From assembly GCF_029433105.1 (NCBI RefSeq), contig NZ_JARNTW010000001.1:868001-932000 (forward strand): a stretch of 64,000 nucleotides of DNA, given 5' to 3'. Below the pieces are notes generated by a model. The model made no database searches. It saw only the letters and a list, made by a program, of their open reading frames with translations, and was not told the origin of the DNA. Both the position numbers and the translations under genes were made by a program. Below are positions 29,448 through 30,900 of this stretch, in pieces (positions within the stretch are counted from its first letter, which is position 1; every line of letters begins with the position of its first letter). The DNA comes from Runella sp. MFBS21 (GTDB lineage: Bacteria > Bacteroidota > Bacteroidia > Cytophagales > Spirosomataceae).

Positions 29448-29784
29448 GTTTTGAGGGATTTTCCAAAAGGTTAGTTATGATATCAACGCTACTCAAGGCC
29501 ATATTATGTAGATGTTGGATTAATTTAATCGGAATAATATTTTGTTTAAGTGGTTGTTTTATTTGTTTTTATACTGAATTTTTGGTGCAACTAGGGGTTG
29601 AAAAGAATATGTTAGAATATTCTTCCGTTTAACCCGATTTTAGTGTGCTTCACCCTATAAAAACAACGCTTCATCCTAATTCCCTTTTTTACCCCAGAAA
29701 TAGCTGCCACTTTTGTAGAGTCAAACACGACATAACAGCCAAAAACAATAAATAATACAGCCAACTTTAAGACAAAACTAAATC
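29448..29784. other. AT-rich intergenic region before the repeat-protein gene
   Basis: No ORF or clear promoter is seen. A GAATATTC palindrome lies near 29617-29624. The repeat-protein ATG follows the A-rich sequence ACTAAATC. Confidence 0.4.
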
Positions 29785-30354
29785 ATGAAAACTCTATTTG
29801 CCACCGCCGCTTTAAGCCTTCTTACTTTGAGCACTATTGCAGAAGCTCAGAATGGAAAAAACCAAACAGAAATCGCTACTCAATTGGTAGCTTCGTTGCC
29901 TACTCAAGATTTTGAAATATATACCACTGCTTCTTATATCCATGTAAATGGAGCCGCTTTGGTAGCTTCTCTACCTATCGTAGATGAAAATGTACAAACA
30001 AGCATCACATGGGTAAATGCTCAGGCTTTGGTAGCTTCTCTACCTATCGTTGACGAAAATGTAGAAATGCCTACTTTGAGAAACGTTGGAAATTTGGTAG
30101 CAACCTTGCCTACAGTAGATGAAAATGTGGAGATGCCTTCTTTGAATAGCATCAACCCTAAAGCTTTAGTAGCTTCGTTGCCTATCATGGATGAAAACGT
30201 AGAAACTCCTGCTTTGAAAGTGAATATGACAAAATGGATGGCTGCTTTGCCTATCAGCGATGAGCATATCCAAACAAGCGTAGTAGTAGATACTTACATC
30301 AAAGCTACAGACTTGAAAAATCATTCAGTAGCAACTCGTTTGACTGAAGAATAA
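29785..30354 (+). CDS. Secreted repeat protein of unknown function (six LVASLP...DENV repeats)
   Basis: I do not recognise this 189-residue protein. It has a signal peptide (residues 1-21, ending AEAQ) and then six degenerate repeats of 22-25 residues, starting at residues 34, 59, 82, 104, 128 and about 151. The unit is (A)LVASLPIVDENVE/Q followed by 8-12 variable residues; the first (LVASLPTQDFEI) and last (MAALPISDEHIQ) are the most diverged. There is no Cys, no lipobox and no membrane segment after the signal. Repeated acidic DENV motifs could bind metal or another protein; this is speculation. It stands alone between a terminator upstream and a shared terminator downstream. The gene is credible because of codon use, signal peptide and terminator. 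Confidence 0.85.
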   Translation: MKTLFATAALSLLTLSTIAEAQNGKNQTEIATQLVASLPTQDFEIYTTASYIHVNGAALVASLPIVDENVQTSITWVNAQALVASLPIVDENVEMPTLRNVGNLVATLPTVDENVEMPSLNSINPKALVASLPIMDENVETPALKVNMTKWMAALPISDEHIQTSVVVDTYIKATDLKNHSVATRLTEE

Positions 30355-30384
30355 TAAATTCGCTAGTTTCCAAATCAGATATAG

Positions 30385-30431
30385 AAGGCGTGTCAGAAAG
30401 AGATAAAACTCTGAAGACACGCCTTTTTTGG
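30385..30431. terminator. Bidirectional terminator between the repeat protein and the lipoprotein
   Basis: AAGGCGTGTC (30385-30394) pairs with GACACGCCTT (30416-30425), followed by T on the plus strand; it lies between convergent genes. Confidence 0.8.
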
Positions 30432-30453
30432 TGTTTTTAATAAAACATATTAA

Positions 30454-30900
30454 TTATTTTTTTCCATAAAAAACCACTGTAGATTTTGGGTCAGCATTTG
30501 GAAAAGTAACTCCCAATTCTCCATTCATCAAAGAAGCGAGTTTAGTAGTGCCTTGGTATCCTTCTATTTCACCAGAAGAAGATTTTTTTAGCGTTAAACT
30601 TTCGTGAGTAGAAAAGGAATCACTGCTTTTGCCGGCCTTATCAGTTAGTGTAAACGTAATTCTAAAAGTAGCTGTCTCATCGCTGATTTTGATGACACTA
30701 ATTTTTGAGGTCGCTGTTACACCAGAGGTATTAGTAGCAGGCAGATTTACGCGGGTTGTACCACCTACGGTATAGTAGGTACCATTGTATTCCCCCGCCA
30801 TTTGATCAGCTAAAATAGGCTCTGGATCTTCTTTTTTGCAGGATGCTAGCATTACTATCAATCCGATAGTTACAAAGCAGAATTTAAAAAATGATTTCAT
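30454..30900 (-). CDS. Small lipoprotein of unknown function
   Basis: This is a 148-residue lipoprotein with signal MKSFFKFCFVTIGLIVMLASC (lipobox LASC, Cys21) and the CKKEDPEP linker start common in Bacteroidota lipoproteins. The mature part (AGEYNGTYYTVGGTTRVN, ISDETATFRITFTLTDKAG, LTLKKSSSGEIEGYQG) looks like a small beta-sandwich or lipocalin-like domain. No specific function can be assigned. It is convergent with the repeat-protein gene and divergent from the TPR sensor kinase. Confidence 0.85.
   Translation of the reverse strand: MKSFFKFCFVTIGLIVMLASCKKEDPEPILADQMAGEYNGTYYTVGGTTRVNLPATNTSGVTATSKISVIKISDETATFRITFTLTDKAGKSSDSFSTHESLTLKKSSSGEIEGYQGTTKLASLMNGELGVTFPNADPKSTVVFYGKK

Follow-up and report, generated by a model that had tools for sequence, protein, structure and literature searches.

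The 64,000-nucleotide stretch of Runella sp. MFBS21 DNA analysed here (hereafter the window) contains a gene that was originally predicted to encode an unrecognised secreted protein made of short repeats. The locus raises the questions of whether this gene is real, whether its repeat unit belongs to any described family, and what an exported protein of such construction might do for the cell. The feature is real and undescribed: a conserved gene encodes an acidic tandem-repeat protein that carries an export signal, and this long form, as it is called below, is no one-off but represents a family restricted to the genus and apparently abundant.

Gene architecture

The window protein begins with a predicted Sec-type signal peptide, continues with six degenerate repeats of 22-25 residues each, and ends in a non-repeated tail (Table 1); its repeat core follows the pattern L-[MVIL]-A-[SA]-L-P-T-x-D. 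In the window gene, successive cores from repeat 1 to repeat 6 are spaced 25, 23, 22, 24, and 23 residues apart. The mature protein contains five copies of the looser motif LxxxLPxxD (repeat 6 has W in place of the first L); when its residues were shuffled 20,000 times, 83 of the shuffled sequences contained the motif once and none more than once. The six degenerate repeats are confirmed. The consensus first read from them requires some qualification: LVASLP is exact in repeats 1, 2, 3, and 5 but reads LVATLP in repeat 4 and WMAALP in repeat 6, and the DENV motif is found in repeats 2-5 and in no other. Likewise, the description of the whole protein after the signal peptide as repeats was slightly overstated, because the last 30 residues lie outside the repeats and form a tail, the end of which (R..E) is retained in 13/13 long forms, the tail in genome G005 being shorter. 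The window protein has a pI of 4.4 and a net charge of -12 and is, as predicted, Cys-free, although 5/13 long forms carry one Cys.

Table 1. The repeat gene and its flanking signals, with positions in the window
Feature	Position	Strand	Basis or remark
Promoter -7-like box of Bacteroidota type, CACTTTTG	29708..29715	+	sequence, upstream-box counts
ACAGCCA leader copy 1	29735..29741	+	upstream-motif comparison
ACAGCCA leader copy 2	29757..29763	+	upstream-motif comparison
Long-form tandem-repeat gene	29785..30354	+	ATG to TAA, stop codon included; 189 aa; exported (predicted)
Sec-type signal peptide (predicted), residues 1-21	29785..29847	+	likely cleaved after AEA before Q; inspection of sequence
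Repeat 1 core, LVASLPTQD	29884..29910	+	residue 34
Repeat 2 core, LVASLPIVD	29959..29985	+	residue 59
Repeat 3 core, LVASLPIVD	30028..30054	+	residue 82
Repeat 4 core, LVATLPTVD	30094..30120	+	residue 104
Repeat 5 core, LVASLPIMD	30166..30192	+	residue 128
Repeat 6 core, WMAALPISD	30235..30261	+	residue 151
Non-repeated C-terminal tail, 30 residues, end TRLTEE	30262..30351	+	alignment of long forms
Intrinsic terminator, 12-pair stem then U run	30383..30430	+	folding of 30355-30445

Export signal and database searches

By inspection, the N-terminus has the n-h-c organisation of a Sec signal peptide with an AxA cleavage site (MKTLFATAALSLLTLSTIAEA|Q), and A.AQ stands at the cleavage position in 13/13 long and 12/12 short forms aligned (the short form being a paralogue described below). 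The signal peptide is also the least changed part of the protein among long-form orthologues, with 3 of 286 residue comparisons differing. On these sequence signs, the long form is predicted to be exported. Neither of two more specialised routes is indicated, as the window protein has no lipobox Cys and matches no Por_Secre_tail model, the mark of type IX secretion cargo, in Pfam or NCBIfam at E up to 1.

Searches of the window protein against family and structure collections returned only noise: the best matches had E values of 1 in Pfam (9.9 of the 27 bits needed), 0.074 in NCBIfam (11.8 of 1271 bits needed), 0.029 in PHROGs, and 0.23 in the PDB by phmmer. When 18 of the 25 family members were scanned singly against Pfam, matches scattered across 15 unrelated families, the best (E 0.0012) being to a family matched by 2/18, and a profile of 18 family members found nothing in the PDB to E 10. 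No title among the matches listed for Runella secretion and repeat proteins concerned this protein, and four peptide strings of the repeat did not occur in the text of the 5.39 million papers searched. The original claims that the repeat unit has no known family, and that an exported (predicted) repeat protein outside described families is encoded here, are thereby borne out.

Distribution of the family

Homologues were sought in 59 genomes, namely that of MFBS21 and 58 relatives, and the long form was found in 13/13 Runella genomes (own plus 12 congeners). The prospect, raised with the original prediction, that the gene might lack any homologue is set aside by its recovery from 12/12 congeners searched. 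The sole named relative, in a search reaching close relatives only, was from Runella zeae DSM 19591 (95% identity over 189 residues), and it is from this match that the congener genomes take their genus label.

A short paralogue of 107-109 aa with two repeats is intact in 11/13 Runella genomes, was not found in G002 (an assembly that is 83% complete), and is degraded in G005, where its signal-peptide end is missing. In the MFBS21 genome (G000), it lies at G000:C18:31360-31683 on the minus strand and is 108 aa long. It shares with the long form the signal peptide type, a similar first unit, the LPTxD core, the ACAGCCA leader, and high codon bias; it differs in having two repeats rather than six, a C-terminus ending in RRADK rather than RLTEE, a near-neutral rather than acidic composition, and adjoining OmpA and helix-hairpin-helix-type genes. 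G018, from another genus of the same taxonomic family, has the short form, and the long form was not found there. In the simplest history, which is offered as an inference, the two-repeat form would be older and the long form would have arisen by duplication en route to Runella, followed by repeat gain.

Wider profile searches gave the same picture. Among 222 genomes of the taxonomic family, 16 had matches at E<=0.01, of which 14 were credible (13 Runella and G018), while G228 and G234 (E 0.008-0.010) were read individually and judged chance matches. Among 390 genomes of the order, 12 had matches at E<=0.1, comprising seven Runella and five uninspected marginal cases at E 0.02-0.055; among 395 genomes of the phylum, the two with matches at E<=0.01 were Runella genomes. 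Both the order set and the phylum set sample larger groups. A plasmid search gave no match. Of the weak single-sequence matches (E above 0.03), the three that were read fell in 364-376-aa Runella proteins that resemble CoA-transferase-type enzymes by eye, and were rejected. A DNA pattern of the repeat core, which misses the window gene itself, gave 11 matches in the MFBS21 genome, one being the paralogue on C18; the two others that were read, at C1:96700 and C1:682645, have surroundings without a family member. In the genomes searched, credible members of the repeat family were limited to Runella and one further genus.

Repeat number, conservation, and selection

Repeat number in the long form is three in G005; four in G010, G001, G004, and G007; five in G003, G012, G009, G002, and G011; six in the MFBS21 genome and G008; and eight in G006, with a spacing of 22-25 residues throughout. 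Repeat number changes between species, as is evident from these counts, and would do so by in-frame duplication. The 51-nt units of the window gene are only 49-80% identical in nucleotides, so its own repeats are old, as was originally argued from their divergence in DNA. Elsewhere in the family, duplication has been more recent: inner repeats of the eight-repeat gene (L004/L077, G006:C270:2853-3548) reach 96% identity in DNA, reflecting recent tandem duplication in G006. The first unit and the last each remain recognisable as such from species to species.

When 70 distinct units are compared, the best-kept columns are L0, A+2, L+4, P+5, T+6, and D+8. The invariance of L0, L+4, P+5, and D+8 is partly due to selection of units, as these positions were built into the search pattern; A+2 (63/70) and T+6 (56/70) lie outside it. 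These columns bear on the suggestion of metal binding in the original prediction, under which the protein would be an acidic metal- or calcium-buffering protein with the DxNxE of DENVE as its ligand. The low pI, the negative charge, and the occurrence of DENV or DENVE in repeats 2-5 would suit such a role, but the sole residue of the DENVE stretch shared by 70/70 distinct repeats is the D of LPTxD (an invariance partly built into the search pattern), N at +10 being found in 34/70 and E at +12 in 39/70, and the paralogue is nearly neutral (net charge 0 to -3). Metal buffering is accordingly regarded as very improbable.

The long-form gene is under purifying selection, with dN/dS of 0.07-0.36 in 17/17 ortholog pairs tested. 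Between orthologues, 28/540 residue comparisons in the core differ (5.2%) versus 98/1199 in the linker (8.2%), a modest contrast drawn from pairs that are not independent. An abundant protein of this lineage with no specific binding role (a filler, a store, or a by-product retained through expression constraints) would sit comfortably with loose linkers and a family nearly restricted to one genus; purifying selection, the preservation of the core across species, and retention of the gene in G005, the smallest Runella genome listed (4.3 Mb), nonetheless make this reading rather unlikely.

Codon bias and expression signals

Codon weights were derived from 18 genes of the ribosomal cluster of the MFBS21 genome and borrowed for the other species. 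Codon adaptation of the window gene, at 0.798, ranks first among 42 window ORFs (next 0.698) and exceeds all 18 ribosomal-cluster reference genes (0.63-0.75); that of the paralogue is 0.745. Expressed as a z value, which is corrected for amino-acid content against local genes and which grows with gene length, codon bias is 2.9-7.2 in 12/13 long forms (G002 left out), 1.8-4.0 in 12 short forms, and 0.2-5.6 in the 18 reference genes. Zero to two local genes per genome equal or exceed the long form's z, with one or two doing so in 6/12 genomes. Codon bias is an indirect sign of expression, and repeats share codons; as the bias tops both window ORFs and ribosomal-cluster genes, the long form is probably abundant and strongly expressed.

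The flanks of the gene carry further signals. The promoter -7 element of Bacteroidota has the consensus TAnnTTTG, which the CACTTTTG box fits except at the first base. The form (C/T)ANNTTTG lies within 120 nt upstream of 21/25 family genes versus 7/42 window ORFs, the window gene among the seven. A sigma-70 consensus scan found 2 matches versus 3.3 expected. Downstream, the 91-nt stretch 30355-30445 folds at -27.4 kcal/mol (z -4.95), so that of the terminators originally ascribed to the gene one clear intrinsic terminator stands. Rfam gave two matches over the gene and its flanks, both below the gathering score.

Bacteroidota mostly lack Shine-Dalgarno signals. Within 100 nt upstream, ACAGCC is found in 24/25 family genes versus 11/290 other ORFs of the fetched loci, the sole exception, in G018, carrying ACAGCT; as the genes are related by descent, this count reflects retention and not 25 independent events. 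Genome-wide, ACAGCCA-N12-42-ATGAAA shows no excess over the reversed motif used as a control (32 versus 40 in the MFBS21 genome; 25 versus 27 in G010). When position is considered, 10 of 30 readable leader matches (of 32) in the MFBS21 genome fall at ORF starts, versus 1/16 for a permuted motif, where an ORF start required an ORF >=100 aa with <=40 open codons upstream and the permuted control was run in that genome only. Seven of these ten leader genes look exported by eye, both family genes included, as do eight of ten distinct leader genes at ORF starts in G010, the long form included; the ATGAAA requirement favours MK-starting signal peptides and may hence raise these shares. Small secreted genes of DUF3244-like type form a cluster among the leader genes of both species. 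ACAGCCA may thus be a leader element of exported-protein genes. A further proposal, that the leader marks high expression, was rejected, as the eight other leader genes of the MFBS21 genome have z values of 2.1 (two genes), -2.4 and -1.9, and -0.3 to 0.9 (four genes).

ACAGCCA also precedes exported-type genes at G000:C5:132160 and 133084 and at G010:C1:3761605-3762491, and the other ACAGCCA-led genes of the two Runella species include some for small DUF3244-like proteins and for proteins that, by eye, are TonB-receptor-like.

Genomic surroundings

The long form lies 3' of a TIM-barrel sugar-isomerase-like gene in 7/12 loci compared (own and G008 included; G002 left out), and in those seven the next common downstream gene is of membrane type by eye, three extra genes intervening in the MFBS21 genome and G008. 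In G010, G001, G004, G007, and G005, it is sited elsewhere. Because neighbours differ across the genus, no partner is tied to the long form; an operon partner was rejected on these grounds (5/12 loci lie elsewhere), and the gene is probably a stand-alone unit. Separately, the window carries at 30454-30900 on the minus strand a lipoprotein-like ORF of 148 aa (LASC by eye) that converges on the repeat gene, has no Pfam match to E 1, and has a relative in G008 alone among the loci compared.

The short form has more constant company, as in 11/11 intact Runella loci it is transcribed divergently from a gene of the OmpA family, behind which come two genes related to each other. In the MFBS21 genome, the first gene after OmpA matches a helix-hairpin-helix family over the cut-off and DUF4332 below it, the second has matches below the cut-off only, and both look membrane-bound by eye. 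The OmpA-family gene and the two related helix-hairpin-helix-type genes can be seen at L087:11107-13162 and in orthologues. In G005, the degraded paralogue (G005:C502:13709-13963; L071, L089) lies beyond the OmpA/helix-hairpin-helix genes, an arrangement that an inversion of those genes, cutting the paralogue, would produce.

These surroundings are of consequence for the notion, also present in the original prediction, of a pro-peptide-like protein, here a precursor cut into several related secreted peptides whose copy number would depend on the species. A signal peptide, multiple similar units in 3-8 copies, the homogenised inner units of G006, and the strong expression signal would all be expected of such a precursor. 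By eye, however, the units are not separated by any constant processing site, basic or otherwise; no gene for processing or for a receptor was recognised alongside, and neighbours differ between clades, which leaves this explanation distinctly improbable.

Structure prediction and a possible mode of action

AlphaFold2 modelled the window protein from a shallow alignment (13 related rows) with a mean pLDDT of 37.9 and a pTM of 0.12, placing isolated helices of 4-8 residues (28-35, 79-83, 102-105, 125-129, and 151-154) at five of the six cores. For the short form, pLDDT was 57.2 and pTM 0.19; the best block, with a mean pLDDT of 80 over residues 51-60, carries a helix at 56-63. The models weakly suggest short helices in an otherwise unfolded chain; with 12-13 related rows, low confidence may reflect either disorder or a fold that the program has not learned, and the support for disorder is weak because the alignments are shallow.

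The small solenoid raised in the original prediction would be a compact alpha-solenoid scaffold with two short helices per 23-residue unit and a turn at LP. The near-constant period of 22-25 residues and the strongly kept positions of the repeats would be natural in such a scaffold, the residues at -4/-6 (N, S) and T+6/E+9 may resemble helix caps, and AlphaFold2 needs alignments deeper than 13 rows. Against these points stand the low pLDDT and pTM (weak evidence at 13 rows), helices that are isolated and very short, the many changes tolerated in linkers, and the lack of any Pfam repeat-family match to E 1 for the window protein; a solenoid is thus considered unlikely.

Taken together, the layout, codon bias, export signal, and structure prediction make multivalent binding by a disordered envelope protein the most likely reading, held tentatively and at somewhat less than an even chance. 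The mature protein would be mostly disordered and would reside either in the periplasm or at the surface of the cell. Every 23-residue unit would present one short helix followed by LPTxD as a "sticker," with stickers separated by a "spacer" of approximately 14 variable acidic or polar residues, and the stickers may bind multivalently to an envelope partner or to one another. In-frame gain or loss of units would then alter valency. The two-repeat paralogue may work in the same way with low valency, conceivably close to the OmpA-type protein whose gene adjoins its own. A broader version, in which this disordered multivalent protein would be among the most abundant exported proteins of Runella, with the undescribed helix-LPTxD motif, an evolvable valency dial running from 2 to 8 motifs across paralogues and Runella species, and an ACAGCCA leader linking it to other exported-protein genes, is possible but on balance doubtful.

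Significance and comparison with known systems

New families of unknown function are not in themselves rare; what lifts this one above the ordinary is its codon bias, together with the repeat ladder and the common leader. An exported (predicted) protein that is coded like ribosomal genes, is found genus-wide, and has no known relative likely matters to the Runella cell envelope. The occurrence of 2, 3, 4, 5, 6, and 8 repeats within one family amounts to a natural experiment on the change and retention of motif number, and the ACAGCCA leader offers a testable handle on exported-protein gene expression in Bacteroidota.

Like type IX cargo bearing Por_Secre_tail, the window protein is a predicted exported protein of Bacteroidota whose C-terminal end is conserved, but it is set apart by the sorting domain, to which it has no match in Pfam or NCBIfam. 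The Runella DUF3244/Por_Secre_tail-like proteins (ATG at G000:C5:132190 and 133122) resemble it in being small, exported, and preceded by the ACAGCCA leader, and their codon bias is moderately raised (z 2.1 each), yet they belong to other sequence families (on weak to borderline matches) and are without LPTxD repeats. Sticker-and-spacer disordered repeat proteins are a general class in which brief hydrophobic motifs recur at even intervals, with variable polar linkers between them, and copy number varies. The long form has no sequence relation to them; its sequence layout, with even motifs, loose acidic linkers, and a variable copy number, fits the class.
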